This document shows positions 23,267-27,525 of a stretch of DNA of 32,479 nucleotides, one piece after another. The DNA comes from a virus. Both the position numbers and the translations under genes were made by a program. Within the stretch, counting starts at the first letter, position 1. Every line of letters begins with the position of its first letter. The stretch is from positions 1 through 32,479 of IMG/VR virus record IMGVR_UViG_3300030118_001545; one strand, written 5' to 3'. Below the pieces are notes generated by a model. The model did no database searches and was not told the origin of the DNA. It was given only the letters and a program-made list of their open reading frames with translations.

Positions 23267-24463
23267 ATGAGACAATTGCTAATTATAGTATTTTTACTAT
23301 CAAATATCACAGTTTTCGCTCAAGAAAACAAAAAGAACTTATTTAAATCAATTTATGAAGATTTTTTTAAATATAGTACTTTTTACATAGCTGGTGATAT
23401 AGAAAATCCAAAAGAAGAAGTTAAAGATTATTTTGTAAGAACAAACCCAGATGGTGGTTTATATGATATACCTGTTGTAGTAGACGGAACAGACTACTAT
23501 GATTTTGACTATAGATATGGTTTTGGTGTACGTAAACTAGCTAGGTTTGATTACGAATTTAAAGGTAAACATTATTATGATGGCACTGAGAGCAGTGTAG
23601 GTTTAGCTGCTACTAATTCACCTGTAAAAGGTTTTGAATATTTATTTCACTGGGAAAAAGAAAGAGAAAGAGATGAAATGTTTGACAACCACAGATACTT
23701 TTTGAAACATAGTGGTAAATATCATGTTGTTAAAATAGAGAGTAGAAAACAAGGTAAGGTTGATTTTAATTATAAATCAGCTGAATTAAAAGCTAAACTA
23801 CCTATTGGTAATAAGTTTAGTATATCTGCAGGCGCAATATATCGTACACATGAAAGACCTTATGGATATAATCCTATTGAAATATGGTTAAATGAAACTC
23901 AAATAATTAATGGTGAAGAATATCCTGTTAATTATTGGTATGAATTAGGTTTCTTATATGGTTATGATGATATATATTATTCACAGCAAGATGAGTTTGG
24001 TAACGAAACATATGACTGGTATTGGATAGATCCAGAAGGTAATATTGTTGCTGATAGCGATCTTGAGTTTCGTGATGGTGTTTTTGCAGACCTTATGAAC
24101 CGATATAATAATGAAATATTTGAAAACATAGATGCTTTTGGTGTTGTTTCACCAGTGGTCGGTTTTGACTTTTATCATTATAAAAATAATTTTTGGCTGC
24201 ATGCTTATGGTAACTATTTATTACCGTATCACAAGTATGTGCAGGGTGATGAAGACTTTAGTTATTTAAATAGAAATAACTGGGGTAAAGGTGGACTAAG
24301 ACAAGACTCTGAGCCAGAGCAGTGGGAAGATTATCAAGCAGGTGTTGTGTTTGGCTGGAAGCTAAGTAAATCAATAGGCTTGTTTGTAGAGGGTGAATAT
24401 ACTAAATTCTGGGATAGTAAAATCTATAACAGTTCTGTTGGATTAAATATAACACTAAGATAA
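23267..24463 (+). CDS. Exported outer-membrane beta-barrel-like protein
   Basis: A 398-aa protein with a clear signal peptide (RQLLIIVFLLSNITVFAQ, cleavage expected near residue 19-20) of the Bacteroidetes type. The mature part is dense in Tyr, Trp, Phe and Gly with alternating hydrophobic residues, the pattern of amphipathic beta strands, and ends YNSSVGLNITLR, like a barrel's last strand. Examples are WEKERERDEMFDNHRYFLKH and GFDFYHYKNNFWLHAYGNY. I recognise similar proteins in marine phage genomes but know no tested role. It could alter the infected cell's outer membrane (superinfection exclusion, release) or be a virion component despite the signal peptide. A 50-base A/T-rich gap precedes it, with no clear promoter. 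The next gene's ATG overlaps the final base of its stop codon. Confidence 0.6.
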   Translation: MRQLLIIVFLLSNITVFAQENKKNLFKSIYEDFFKYSTFYIAGDIENPKEEVKDYFVRTNPDGGLYDIPVVVDGTDYYDFDYRYGFGVRKLARFDYEFKGKHYYDGTESSVGLAATNSPVKGFEYLFHWEKERERDEMFDNHRYFLKHSGKYHVVKIESRKQGKVDFNYKSAELKAKLPIGNKFSISAGAIYRTHERPYGYNPIEIWLNETQIINGEEYPVNYWYELGFLYGYDDIYYSQQDEFGNETYDWYWIDPEGNIVADSDLEFRDGVFADLMNRYNNEIFENIDAFGVVSPVVGFDFYHYKNNFWLHAYGNYLLPYHKYVQGDEDFSYLNRNNWGKGGLRQDSEPEQWEDYQAGVVFGWKLSKSIGLFVEGEYTKFWDSKIYNSSVGLNITLR

Positions 24464-24747
24464 TGGCAAAGCAATTAGGAGAAGATACTAAAGTAACATT
24501 AGACCTAAAAACAATAGGTATGATTGTAGGTTTTACAATAACATTAGCAAGCATGTACTTTGTAATGCAGGCAGATATAGCTAAAGCTATGGAGTTACCA
24601 GCACCTGTAATCGATAGAGTTGAATATGATTTAAAGGACGAATTAATACGTCAGACAATTATGGACACGCAAGATGATGTAGAAGAGATAAAAGAAACTA
24701 TTGATAAGATAGATCAAAGACTATACGAAATACAAAAAAATAGATAA
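24463..24747 (+). CDS. Single-TM coiled-coil protein (possible holin/spanin-type)
   Basis: A 94-aa protein. One membrane segment lies at about residues 18-37 (IGMIVGFTITLASMYFVMQA). A charged heptad-like C-terminus follows (about 55-92), including MDTQDDVEEIKETIDKIDQR. A short cytoplasmic N-terminus with a periplasmic coiled coil would fit an inner-membrane spanin or a pinholin-like protein, but neither is proven. It shares one base with the stop codon of the outer-membrane gene before it and with the start of the next gene, so all three are translationally coupled. Confidence 0.6.
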   Translation: MAKQLGEDTKVTLDLKTIGMIVGFTITLASMYFVMQADIAKAMELPAPVIDRVEYDLKDELIRQTIMDTQDDVEEIKETIDKIDQRLYEIQKNR

Positions 24748-25160
24748 TGAAAAATATTCTAATTTTAATTTTAATACCATTTTTATCAATTGCACAAGTA
24801 GACGTACCAGAAGAATACTGGATAGACGATACTAATTTTGAAGAAAAAATAAATATAAAAGAAGCTTTTGGTGATGATAACAATAAACCTGTTGTTGTAG
24901 AGTTTTGGGCTAAGTTTAATGAAGTAAATTGTTTTGCTGATTGGGATAAAATAGAAAATGCTATTTACTATAGAGTTAATATAGCTGATGCTCCTAGTGC
25001 TAAGAAAAAATACAAAGTTCGTATGGCACCAACTATTATAATATATAAAGATGGTTTTAAAGAAGAGGTTTTTAAAGCAGGTTTAGATTTAACATTACCA
25101 GCTGATCTAAACGATATTCAAAAAGCAATAAACGAAGTTAATAACGCAAGTAAATTTTAA
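24747..25160 (+). CDS. Exported thioredoxin-fold protein lacking the CxxC site
   Basis: A 137-aa protein with a signal peptide (KNILILILIPFLSIAQ). The mature region follows the thioredoxin plan: a central strand VVVEFWAKFNEVNCF, where the usual WCxxC is replaced by a segment with a single Cys, and a later MAPTIIIYKDG that keeps the cis-proline loop. Without the paired cysteines it should not act as a dithiol oxidoreductase; a binding or chaperone role in the periplasm is more likely. It is coupled to the one-TM gene before it (shared A). The next small basic gene starts 3 bases after it ends. I recognise the type from marine phages, without known function. Confidence 0.65.
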   Translation: MKNILILILIPFLSIAQVDVPEEYWIDDTNFEEKINIKEAFGDDNNKPVVVEFWAKFNEVNCFADWDKIENAIYYRVNIADAPSAKKKYKVRMAPTIIIYKDGFKEEVFKAGLDLTLPADLNDIQKAINEVNNASKF

Positions 25161-25163
25161 ATT

Positions 25164-25304
25164 ATGGCAAAGGGTAAAAAAGATGCATGTTATCACAAGG
25201 TAAAAAGTAGAGTAAAAGTTTGGCCGAGCGCTTATGCTTCTGGTCAATTAGTACAGTGTAGAAAAAGAGGTGCTAAAAACTGGGGTGTAGGTAAAAAGAA
25301 GTAA
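25164..25304 (+). CDS. Tiny basic protein A (46 aa)
   Basis: ATG 25164 gives 46 residues with 14 Lys/Arg and one acidic residue. It contains two Cys and a motif HKVKSRVKVWPSAYASGQLV, which I know as a recurrent signature in viruses of marine microbes. Function is not established. It could bind DNA or RNA or be packaged in the virion. It shares one base with the following start (TAATG). Confidence 0.7.
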   Translation: MAKGKKDACYHKVKSRVKVWPSAYASGQLVQCRKRGAKNWGVGKKK

Positions 25305-25477
25305 TGGCTAAAGCTTATAGAGGAGTTTTAAAAGCTCGTATAAATAAACTATATGGTGGTGATGTTACTTGTGGTAAAGTTAAAAAGCTTAAATCACGTA
25401 GAGAAGCAACTAAAAGAGATGTTCAGTTAGCTAATTGGTTTATTAATATGCAAAATTGTGGTCATGGTAAAAAGTAA
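25304..25477 (+). CDS. Tiny basic protein B (57 aa)
   Basis: 57 residues, rich in Lys/Arg, with two Cys (DVTCGKVKKL and QNCGHGKK) and a helical centre (REATKRDVQLANWFINMQ). I do not recognise the family. It starts on the last base of gene A's stop codon, and gene C begins inside its final codons, so expression is likely coupled in both directions. A zinc-binding role for the Cys/His residues is only a possibility. Confidence 0.6.
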   Translation: MAKAYRGVLKARINKLYGGDVTCGKVKKLKSRREATKRDVQLANWFINMQNCGHGKK

Positions 25478-25571
25478 AAAGAAAAAAGGTAGATGCTGGC
25501 CTGGTTATGCACCTGTAAAAGGTAAAAAACCATACTCACCAGGTAGCTGTAAAAAAATAAAGAAAAGATAA
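25464..25571 (+). CDS. Tiny basic protein C (35 aa), overlaps gene B
   Basis: 35 residues: 14 Lys/Arg, no acidic residue, two Cys. The core GRCWPGYAPVKGKKPYSPGS resembles a short Cys-Trp-Pro-Gly motif that recurs in marine phage peptides. Its ATG lies 14 bases inside gene B in another frame, and its stop codon shares a base with the next start. Conservation of the core and the TAATG junction argue that it is real despite its size. Confidence 0.6.
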   Translation: MVKSKKKKGRCWPGYAPVKGKKPYSPGSCKKIKKR

Positions 25572-25834
25572 TGCCTAAGAAAAAAAGTAAAGTAAAAGGT
25601 GGTGGAACTAGAAAAGTTTGTTTACCCGCAGCTAAAGTTCGTAGCATGTCTAAATCTGAACGTGCTAAAGTAGTTAGAGCTAAACGTAAAGCTGCTAAAG
25701 GTGGTGGATATAGAAGATCTAGTAAGTCAAATGTAAAAGGTGCTCGTAAAAAAGGAGCAACACTACGTGATTGGTTTAAAAAAGAAAACTGGGTACAGGT
25801 AGGTAACCCTAGTAAAAAATGTGGAGATAAATAA
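25571..25834 (+). CDS. Small basic protein D (87 aa)
   Basis: 87 residues, roughly a third Lys/Arg. In order: a Lys/Gly N-terminus, RKVCLPAAKVRSMSKSERAK (about 15-34), a Gly/Ser/Arg linker, then GATLRDWFKKENWVQVG and a terminal KKCGDK with Cys. I recognise this combination as a conserved small protein of marine viruses, with no known function. The basic linker with a short C-terminal fold suggests nucleic-acid binding. It is coupled to gene C by TAATG; the next ATG is 1 base after its stop codon. Confidence 0.7.
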   Translation: MPKKKSKVKGGGTRKVCLPAAKVRSMSKSERAKVVRAKRKAAKGGGYRRSSKSNVKGARKKGATLRDWFKKENWVQVGNPSKKCGDK

Positions 25835-25835
25835 T

Positions 25836-26009
25836 ATGAAATCAAGAGGTTTAGGAGACAGCGTACATAAATTTACAAAAGCAACTGGTATCAAACGAGT
25901 AGTTGATACTGTATCTAAAGGTTTAAATATACCTTGTGGATGTGAAGGTAGAAGACAAGCTTTAAATAATTTAGTACCTTATAACAAACAATTTAAATTA
26001 AGAAAATAA
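25836..26009 (+). CDS. Small protein E (57 aa) with CGC motif
   Basis: 57 residues from ATG 25836; a GTG start at 25821 would overlap gene D and is less likely. Sequence: a basic N-terminus, SVHKFTKATGIKRVVDTVSK helix, then IPCGCEGRRQALNNLVPYN. The CxC followed by Arg/Lys and Leu-Asn before a Pro-Tyr resembles a recurrent hypothetical protein in Bacteroidetes and marine phages. Function unknown. Stop and next start overlap (TAATG). Confidence 0.65.
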   Translation: MKSRGLGDSVHKFTKATGIKRVVDTVSKGLNIPCGCEGRRQALNNLVPYNKQFKLRK

Positions 26010-26122
26010 TGGGATATGCAAGTGCTGCTCAACGTAAAGCAGTTTGGGCAAGTAAAAAAGACGGTGGTAAAGGTAATCCTAACCGTAAAAAGAAAAGAAA
26101 AGTTAAACGTAAAAAGAAATAA
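26009..26122 (+). CDS. Tiny basic protein F (37 aa)
   Basis: 37 residues, 16 of them Lys/Arg, one acidic. N-terminal GYASAAQRKAVWASKKDGGK is a recognisable short phage motif (Ser-x-Ala-Gln-Arg-Lys-Ala). The last 15 residues are nearly all Lys/Arg. No Cys. Such a tail binds nucleic acid non-specifically. It starts within the stop codon of gene E, and gene G begins 2 bases after its own stop codon. Confidence 0.65.
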   Translation: MGYASAAQRKAVWASKKDGGKGNPNRKKKRKVKRKKK

Positions 26123-26124
26123 CT

Positions 26125-26244
26125 ATGCCAGGAAAACACAAGAAGCTTACAGCTAAACAAATGAAAATAGCTAAAATGGCTCCACCTTATAATAAAATAA
26201 CAGGTGCAGATTTTAAAGCATTAAAAAAGAAAAAGAAGTACTAA
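26125..26244 (+). CDS. Tiny basic protein G (39 aa)
   Basis: 39 residues: a basic helix (KHKKLTAKQMKIAKMAPP), a short loop, then a C-terminal Lys run. The 'KQMKIAKMAPPYNKITGADF' pattern is common in small phage proteins of unknown role. It has one acidic residue and no Cys. Coupled to the next gene through TAATG. Confidence 0.65.
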   Translation: MPGKHKKLTAKQMKIAKMAPPYNKITGADFKALKKKKKY

Positions 26245-26495
26245 TGGCTGAACCAAGAAGAACTACTAAAGGTAAAGGTCGTAATTTTAGAACTGTAAAA
26301 GAAGGTGCTGGTATGACTAAAAAAGGAGTAGCAGCATACAGGCGTAAAAACCCAGGCAGTAAACTAAAAACAGCCGTTACTGGTAAGGTAAAACCTGGTA
26401 GCAAAGCTGCTAAGCGTAGAAAGTCGTTTTGTGCAAGATCAAAACACTGGAAAGGTGAAAGAGGTAAAGCTGCTAGACGTAGATGGAAATGTTAA
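26244..26495 (+). CDS. Small basic protein H (83 aa), 'GMTKKGVAAYRRKNPGSKL' family
   Basis: 83 residues with 30 Lys/Arg and only three acidic. The core GMTKKGVAAYRRKNPGSKL (about 23-41), then RKSFCARSKHW and the ending ARRRWKC are a signature I know from very many marine phages and some algal viruses; I believe it corresponds to a DUF6321-type family but cannot verify the number here. Its function is not established. The composition suggests nucleic-acid binding. It closes the tightly coupled run of small genes. Confidence 0.75.
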   Translation: MAEPRRTTKGKGRNFRTVKEGAGMTKKGVAAYRRKNPGSKLKTAVTGKVKPGSKAAKRRKSFCARSKHWKGERGKAARRRWKC

Positions 26496-26509
26496 TTAAA
26501 ATTATCAAA

Positions 26510-26566
26510 ATGAAAAATAAAAAGAACGCTTGCCCGTTTTGTGGCGGTTATTGTGGTCTTTGTTAG
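26510..26566 (+). CDS. 18-aa Cys-rich peptide (possible)
   Basis: ATG 26510, preceded by AATTATCAAA, encodes KNKKNACPFCGGYCGLC then TAG. The C-x2-C-x3-C-x2-C arrangement could bind zinc or a metal cluster. It is very short and uses TAG where neighbours use TAA. Its G/C-rich Cys codons stand out in an otherwise A/T-rich gap (26496-26603), which supports a real peptide. No family recognised. Confidence 0.45.
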   Translation: MKNKKNACPFCGGYCGLC

Positions 26567-26603: not shown

Positions 26604-26969
26604 ATGTTTAAAGATAAAGAATTAAGAGGTTACATAGGTGCTGCTACAGTGTTTTTACTTGTAATGGGACTTTTATTATTTCTGGCATTTTTTGAAATAC
26701 CAGACACAAACAACGATATATTCAAGGTAATAGTCGGTATGTTAGTTGGTTCACTTTCTGTTGTTATTTATACTTTTATAGGTAAAAATCCAGAAGAAGT
26801 TGAAGCACTTAAAGCTAAAAATGAAGCTTTAGAAGACAAAGTATCAGCTATGGTAATTGAAAAAGATAAATTAGAAGCATTATTAAGAGATCTTCAAAAC
26901 GAGATTATAGAAAATTTATCTATAGCTGGTGGTAAGTTTGAGTTTAAAAACAATGGAAAAGTTAAGTAA
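26604..26969 (+). CDS. Two-TM coiled-coil protein, holin-like
   Basis: 121 residues: membrane segments at about 10-31 (IGAATVFLLVMGLLLFLAFF) and 40-60 (VIVGMLVGSLSVVIYTFIG), then a long coiled coil (64-105, KNPEEVEALKAKNEALEDKV onward) and a basic end. Size, two TM helices and a position just before a cell-wall peptidase fit a class II holin or a membrane-anchored lysis regulator. The coiled coil is longer than in most holins. Its 3' end overlaps the peptidase start by 17 bases. Confidence 0.6.
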   Translation: MFKDKELRGYIGAATVFLLVMGLLLFLAFFEIPDTNNDIFKVIVGMLVGSLSVVIYTFIGKNPEEVEALKAKNEALEDKVSAMVIEKDKLEALLRDLQNEIIENLSIAGGKFEFKNNGKVK

Positions 26970-27388
26970 ACACGTAAGTTACCGTGAAGGTGTGTATAGC
27001 AGAACAGCACAAAGACTTGGATTAAAAAATGATCCGTCTGATGTTCATTTAGCTAACATGAGGCTTATATCAGAAAAAGTATTTGAACCTCTTAGAGAGT
27101 TTGTAGGAGGTCCTATAAAGATAAATTCGTTTTATCGGTGGATCGTCAAAATCACAACATTGTCACGGACAAGCAATTGATATTGATGACACTTTTGGAC
27201 ATGCTACTAACGCTGTTATGTATAATTGGATTAAAGAGAATTTAAACTTTGATCAAATGATATGGGAGTTTGGCGATGATAATAATCCTAATTGGGTGCA
27301 TGTTAGCTATGTGTCACCTGAAGAAAATAGAAACAGATGCTTAAAAGCATATAAAGAAAATGGTAAGACTAAATACATGGTAATATGA
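26953..27388 (+). pseudogene. M15-type peptidoglycan peptidase (endolysin), frame-broken
   Basis: The 5' part (ATG 26953, frame 1) encodes 62 expected residues ending INSFYR, then runs into unrelated sequence and a stop codon at 27180. The 3' part continues in frame 2 from about 27137 with GGSSKSQHCHGQAIDIDD, the SxHxxGxAxD zinc motif of VanY/M15 peptidases, and later NPNWVHVSY, the third-ligand region, ending TGA 27388. In intact relatives about eight residues (roughly S..LN.AI) join FYR to GGSS; these are absent. The damage therefore looks like a ~26-base deletion rather than a simple one-base slip. All metal ligands lie after the break, so the short product should be inactive. It could also be an assembly error in a metagenomic genome. 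Confidence 0.7.
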
Positions 27389-27525
27389 AAAAAGAAAAAT
27401 TAAACTTTAAACCTCACAAAATGTATTGTAAAGATGGTAGTGTAAAAGATGCTACAACATATAATTTACATTTAAAATATAAGAAAATGGGTTGTGGACA
27501 TAGCCCTAAGAAAAATAAAAAATAA
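27385..27525 (+). CDS. Small basic protein I (46 aa)
   Basis: 46 residues starting in ATGA overlap with the peptidase stop codon. Sequence features: KPHKMYCKDGSVKDATTYNL, then YKKMGCGHSPKK with a Lys-rich end. The 'PHKMY..G..V..A.T...HL' pattern resembles a widespread small phage protein without known function. Two Cys and three His could bind metal. It is separated from the main cluster of small genes by the lysis genes. Confidence 0.65.
   Translation: MKKEKLNFKPHKMYCKDGSVKDATTYNLHLKYKKMGCGHSPKKNKK

Follow-up and report, generated by a model that had tools for sequence, protein, structure and literature searches.

Small basic genes clustered in a probable flavobacterial phage include separate counterparts of modules in a cyanophage polyprotein

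Introduction

The internal proteins IPI–IPIII and the core protein gp67 of bacteriophage T4 are small proteins that reach the head interior through the prohead core and mature by cleavage after (L/I)-X-E (PMC9026906, PMC9958956). The T4 protease gp21 cleaves after L/I-X-E, and its giant-phage relatives likewise cleave after Glu (PMC9026906). T4-like cyanophages encode a long polypeptide, gp114 (PHROG 727, 3477, and 10346; T4-GC119 in S-SM1), of 271–900 aa with acidic linkers. The C-terminal module of this polypeptide belongs to DUF6321, a family of unknown function in Pfam that was not mentioned in the open-licence papers searched. DUF5872, another Pfam family relevant here, has been noted in an algal giant virus as well (PMC12085832). 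Individual motifs of this kind were already known to be widespread, and two are listed in Pfam as DUFs.

Here we analyzed a 32,479-nt stretch of viral DNA (IMG/VR record IMGVR_UViG_3300030118_001545; hereafter, the window), for which a preliminary description had reported a run of tiny basic genes and proposed a single shared job for them. The window genes are likened to the T4 internal proteins by role only, with no sequence relationship claimed, and the N-terminal targeting peptide of the T4 proteins was not recognized in the window genes. Sequence relationship was found with the gp114 family: homologues of window genes A and H were detected in nearly all members, those of D in many, and those of C in a few.

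Results

Organization, charge, and selection of the gene cluster

The run comprises genes A to H, followed by peptide I (Table 1). The reported arrangement of eight tiny basic genes that overlap or abut was confirmed from the open reading frames, charges, dN/dS values, homologues, and co-occurrence, and the Lys/Arg counts given earlier (16 of 37 residues in F and 30 of 83 in H) were exact. The spacing between each start and the previous end was 0, −13, 0, +2, 0, +3, and 0, comprising four TAATG junctions, one 14-nt overlap (C over the end of B), and two gaps of 1–2 nt. Exactly two Cys residues were present in six of the eight proteins. The net charge of A–H ranged from +17 to +41 per 100 aa and that of the other window genes checked from −7.4 to +0.7, except for a ninth basic gene outside the reported span (+24) and peptide I (+17). 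Peptide I was less basic than A–H and is probably a separate gene.

Table 1. Features of the window in and around the cluster of small basic genes
Feature	Position	Strand	Product	Characteristics
Outer-membrane-like gene	23267–24463		398 aa	family unknown; N-terminal signal-like sequence
Thioredoxin-fold gene	24747–25160			signal-peptide-like N-terminus; single Cys in place of CxxC
Gene A	25164–25304	+	46 aa	core DACYxKVK...VWPSAYASGxLVxCRKxGAxNWG; two Cys
Gene B	25304–25477	+	57 aa	basic module; two Cys
Gene C	25464–25571	+	35 aa (ATG start)	core CWxGYxxxxG...GSC; two Cys; alternative GTG start at 25458 gives 37 aa
Gene D	25571–25834	+	87 aa	D1 (KVCLPAAKxRSMSKSER...KRKAA), then D2 (LRDWFxKENWVQVG...CG)
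Gene E	25836–26009	+	57 aa	core CGCxxRQxxLNxxxPY; two Cys
Gene F	26009–26122	+	37 aa	16 Lys/Arg; no Cys; AQRKAVWA(S/H)...DGGKG
Gene G	26125–26244	+	39 aa	no Cys; KKLTxKQMKIAxMAPPxNKITGADF
Gene H	26244–26495	+	83 aa	Pfam DUF6321; both Cys and final W-x-C invariant
Peptide I	26510–26566	+	18 aa	MKNKKNACPFCGGYCGLC; four Cys (CPFCGGYCGLC)
M15-type endolysin	26953–27388			frame broken near 27140
Endolysin, C-terminal half	27218–27388			separate ORF
Ninth basic gene	27385–27525	+	46 aa	two Cys; outside reported span

Median dN/dS values against homologues were 0.34 (A), 0.14 (B), 0.09 (C), 0.23 (D), 0.15 (E), 0.19 (F), 0.15 (G), and 0.13 (H). All eight genes are under purifying selection. Values near 1 had been named beforehand as an argument against real coupled genes; with medians of 0.09–0.34, A–H are real coding genes.

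Host and neighboring genes

Among the best matches, the nearest named phages for the MCP were flavobacterial and related podophages (Maribacter phage Panino, Flavobacterium elemo phages, and Cellulophaga phages; 41–47% identity), and the nearest cellular-bin contigs for H were from Flavobacteriaceae. Based on these relatives, the window phage probably infects Bacteroidota and is likely a flavobacterial podophage. The cultured Flavobacterium phage elemoF carries small basic Cys-bearing peptides (L545:8185–8433 and near 34417), one of which ends in KNFHARHKC...CTKLW; the A–H profiles gave no match to them.

The outer-membrane-like protein upstream of the cluster, whose beta-barrel appearance was judged by eye only, was found in 174 IMG/VR stretches and is unusual for a phage. 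The thioredoxin-fold protein scored 28.3 bits in Pfam (cut-off, 23.5), and in 70 of 80 loci its gene was conserved next to the outer-membrane-like one. Downstream, the endolysin that is interrupted in the window was encoded in relatives by one uninterrupted frame of about 131–154 codons (56 of 56 checked), and the break is either a sequencing error or a real lesion.

Members of the peptide I family have 17–19 residues and end in CP(F/I/L)CGG(Y/V)CG(L/I/N)C, with the four Cys residues kept in all 22 distinct segments. Dozens of related loci carried such a peptide, though not at a constant position (e.g., L093:4413–4466, L100:8637–8690, and L082:12062–12118), often just before the outer-membrane-like gene. 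Peptide I is possibly among the smallest conserved phage genes and may be a free-standing metal knuckle.

Co-occurrence and shuffled order of the modules

Homologues of A–H were gathered from IMG/VR by several scans and profile searches. Each family was matched in 41–212 of the 318 related loci searched, and peptide I in 31; the gene E module was additionally found in the spring podovirus MW202828. The families are widespread, recurring across hundreds of contigs from viruses, as had been said of the individual motifs in marine viruses.

In 46 of the 80 H-anchored loci, another module was encoded on the same strand no more than 3 kb away; none had one on the opposite strand. As a control, MCP-anchored loci were inspected, and the small number with a module nearby (3 of 80) led us to reject the idea that modules always lie beside the capsid gene. 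A further 80 loci were collected via the upstream outer-membrane-like gene and were thus independent of the tiny genes. The same families were found there between the outer-membrane-like gene, the thioredoxin-like gene, and the endolysin, and beyond, with presence and order varying by phage; the family of the ninth basic gene accompanied the set in 12 of these loci. In genome-bin contigs, where H loci were found by a single-protein search, a second module was counted by hand in 27 of 46, and adjacent A-D-H genes were frequent.

These data bear out the co-occurrence anticipated in the preliminary description, but not the same order, which was shuffled: for example, L082, the nearest relative, had A-D-C-E-F-G-H, whereas L147 and its kin had H-E-A-C-F-D and L091 and its kin had A-B-D. 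Conserved gene order was rejected, as only some pairs hold their order; A preceded D by 36 to 1, and the pairs D/H, C/H, and A/E flipped.

Modules A, C, D, and H in one cyanophage polypeptide

The modules were also found fused. Combinations in the phage's own relatives were B-D, F-A, C-D, C-B, C-H, D-H, and C-D-H, with B joined to D or C in L257, L318, and L095 and F placed ahead of A in L101, L104, L306, and L002. T4-like cyanophages combine A, C, D, and H as modules in the single polypeptide gp114, whose gene lies between those for TerS and TerL. Profile scores in the polyproteins were 53–61 bits for A, 31–38 bits for H, and 15–21 bits for D (three proteins), and C scored 36 bits in one protein (ACG-2014f) and a weaker 10–12 bits in three more; maxima of the shuffled controls were 7.8–8.7 bits (7.8 for C). 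All four modules were recognized at profile level in the ACG-2014f protein. In Syn9 gp114, A and H were found at profile level; C matched weakly, and a segment resembling D was seen by eye only. The 87 distinct polyproteins included architectures of A then H (54), D-A-H (16), A-C-H (2), and D-A-C-H (1). Thus, A, C, D, and H are homologous to parts of one polypeptide at scores above the shuffled controls, and are separate genes in the window instead of one reading frame.

Unlike the window, the gp114 family joins its modules in one chain with acidic linkers and co-encodes a gp21 protease, and B, E, F, and G gave no match in cyanophage polyproteins. The two parts of D were arranged as D2-D1 in all 15 polyproteins that scored for both, whereas gene D has D1-D2, which indicates that D is circularly permuted between the window phage and the cyanophages. 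The relative order of A- and C-like segments differed between P-SSM2 and Syn9, implying that shuffling also occurs within the polyprotein. A single job for the tiny basic genes, as originally suggested from their clustering, is strongly supported by the union of A, C, D, and H in one cyanophage polypeptide and by the fusions of A, B, C, D, F, and H in other combinations in relatives.

Junctions between modules and prohead proteases

The residue before module H was Glu in 76 of the 79 polyproteins in which the start of H could be placed (59 of 61 distinct 12-mers), compared with an upstream background Glu frequency of 6.3%. The context was mostly (V/L/I/H/T)-x-E, with P3 often His or Thr, not the strict Leu/Ile of T4. 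Junctions before A were similar (arrow, junction), such as IEE↓GKKDACY or LQE↓VKDKPGKGSGKKDACY, and those before C read LDE↓KCW or FQE↓KCW. In sequence, these cyanophage junctions look like T4 prohead-protease sites. The junction Glu lies outside module H, because the same AAWTRKEG-type module, standing alone in contig L534, has SPFLK-T ahead of it instead.

Protease family S77 was found in all seven named fused-form cyanophages and in 11 of 13 fused-form contigs, and in none of five named separate-form phages. Ancestry confounds this correlation, since gp21 is present in T4-like phages anyway. Searches for S77, validated on cyanophages, and for S78, positive in four control genomes, gave no match in 49 window-type records, a set that included fragments.

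In flavophage-type relatives, modules were often led and joined by SP(F/L/M/A)xK; SP was ten times commoner in linkers (2.17 per 100 aa) than in large ORFs (0.22). A reading of this motif as a known prohead-protease site was unsupported, given the S77 and S78 results; the motif may mark cutting or sorting, or may be only a flexible joint. Some long flavophage-type proteins (L257:5008–6249, L101:11847–12920, and L124:12547–13560) string basic modules with other domains, with SP(L/M/F/N) motifs in the linkers between segments. An apparent PAP2 phosphatase-like segment was seen by eye between modules in L257, and HCxSxMMHSGGW segments were seen in L101 and L124.

Conserved cores and paired cysteines

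Gene H is a member of DUF6321 (PF19846; 42.1 bits; cut-off, 28.5). Gene A aligned to positions 5–38 of the 116 positions of DUF5872 (PF19197), and its score of 19.8 bits was below the gathering score of 27.5, so it is not a member. In A, PSAYA was invariant (Pro, Ser, Ala, and Tyr), and in H, two Cys, a Trp, and several Gly, Leu, and Arg residues were invariant. Given these invariant positions, the modules have the character of small folded domains rather than of bare charge; the low-complexity Arg/Lys sequence without a conserved core that is expected of a protamine-like protein was not seen. AlphaFold2 gave helical models of moderate confidence (pLDDT 81 for H and 76 for A), that of A being a helical hairpin. 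Neither a PDB sequence search with the A and H profiles nor a PDB fold search with the AlphaFold2 models returned a match.

Exactly two Cys residues were present in 34 of 34 distinct segments of C, 79 of 79 of E, and 165 of 173 of H. Segments of A had two in 92 of 115 cases and none in 17 (two or none, 109 of 115), and those of B had two or none in 46 of 47. This retention of Cys in pairs, mostly lost as pairs, suggests disulfides or shared metal sites. D was the exception, in that 36 of 153 segments had one Cys, which may reflect alignments that stop short of the last Cys.

Module-bearing proteins in cyanophage virions

Two cyanophage proteins bearing the modules are linked to virions. S-CREM2 ORF137 (108049–109521), the C-terminus of which matched module H at 69 bits, was detected in CsCl-purified particles by four unique peptides (4.1% coverage; PMC10665884, Table 3). 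S-SCSM1 gp029, with modules D, A, and H, is tagged "virion protein" in its record. This tag very probably reflects mass spectrometry, because the record holds about 47 such tags by our own count and 45 virion proteins were identified by that method (PMC9602691). The authors of both proteomes cautioned about possible co-purified proteins (PMC10665884, PMC9602691). Counting against a virion location, the S-SM1 homologue is annotated "hypothetical", though S-SM1 had a virion proteome. For phages that encode the modules as separate genes, such as the cultured HTVC010P, HTVC028P, and S-TIP28, our search found no virion proteome. In Syn9, S-SM1, and S-CREM2, the gene is positioned between gp16 and gp17.

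Discussion

The explanation that we favor, with modest confidence, is that A–H form a mosaic assortment of small basic cargo proteins carried inside the head of the virion. The virion location of the window proteins is inferred from the homologues in cyanophage virions and their DNA binding from basic charge; cleavage in the cyanophages and ejection are likewise inferred. Each gene would encode a module that is autonomous. The T4-like cyanophages would make D, A, C, and H as one precursor that enters the prohead, where a gp21-type prohead protease probably cleaves it behind the Glu of each module junction to yield separate basic peptides. In the window phage, the modules would already be separate ("pre-cut") and translationally coupled, with separate start codons replacing the protease, and would be synthesized late and taken into the head. 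The modules most likely accompany the packaged DNA inside the particle, offsetting part of its charge, and are probably ejected with it. The complete set carries +129 charges; arithmetically, at the 360 copies each known for T4 internal proteins (PMC9026906), it would offset approximately one-third of the phosphates of a 70-kb genome, a size taken from near relatives of 68–69 kb. Such an offset is physically reasonable.

The preliminary description had listed a protamine-like DNA-condensing set packaged in the head among its candidates. Packaging in the head is favored because S-CREM2 ORF137 and S-SCSM1 gp029 are linked by mass spectrometry to purified virions, and the protamine-like part, that is, bare charge, is doubtful given the conserved Trp, Tyr, Pro, Gly, and Cys positions.

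The same conservation of uncharged residues is compatible with a different, less probable role, in which the proteins are packaged like T4 IPI or Alt as injected host-takeover or anti-defence effectors; each would act on its own host target, and any compaction of DNA would be a by-product. Ejection is known for the T4 internal proteins, one of which, IPI, blocks a restriction enzyme (PMC9026906). Presence, absence, and order are mosaic in relatives, as an arms race predicts, and the PAP2-like segment of L257 would fit as well. However, conservation of the modules across phages of Synechococcus, Prochlorococcus, Pelagibacter, and flavobacteria is broad for target-specific inhibitors, and all modules are uniformly basic.

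Somewhat less likely again are unpackaged intracellular proteins that bind RNA or ribosomes for host takeover. Their composition resembles that of small ribosomal proteins, and the cyanophage virion detections could be carry-over of abundant proteins; against this, module-bearing proteins appeared in two independent virion proteomes, the cyanophage gene sits within the packaging and neck block, and the junctions are prohead-protease-like. It is improbable that the proteins are structural stabilizers of the capsid, neck, or tail with the Cys pairs as disulfides in the particle: pairing in segments of A, B, C, E, and H and the gp16–gp17 position would suit such a part, but an essential structural component would hardly be expected to vary in content and order, the charge points to a nucleic-acid partner, and the single Cys in segments of D does not fit. 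Membrane-active lysis peptides, proposed earlier from proximity to the endolysin, are very improbable and found no support. In the window, A–H do sit alongside the endolysin and a gene that is putatively holin-like, but they lack hydrophobic segments, have conserved Gly, Pro, and Cys motifs, and elsewhere lie between terminase genes (cyanophages) or near capsid genes (phage HTVC023P).

Returning to virion cargo, a broader proposal, which we hold more tentatively, is that small cargo modules form an exchangeable kit common to unrelated marine phages, each lineage having its own processing or sorting tag at the junctions. These tags would be (V/L/I/H/T)xE↓(G/A/S/D) in T4-like cyanophages, SP(F/L/M/A)xK in flavophage-type phages, and separate start codons in the window phage. 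In the open-licence papers searched, we found no prior statement of the motifs as interchangeable modules of one virion protein, nor of a junction rule resembling that of prohead proteases.

The motifs are very common in marine viruses, yet all database families involved are of unknown function. Through the fusions, several of these families are tied to one protein, which mass spectrometry in turn links to virions. A sizable part of viral "dark matter" can therefore be tested as cargo of the particle. Exact cut sites are predicted in the cultured cyanophages Syn9, S-SM1, and P-SSM2, and delivery by polyprotein or by operon offers a natural comparison linked to the presence of the prohead protease. 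If the kit proposal is true, the same cargo would be delivered by a polyprotein in some phages and by an operon in others.
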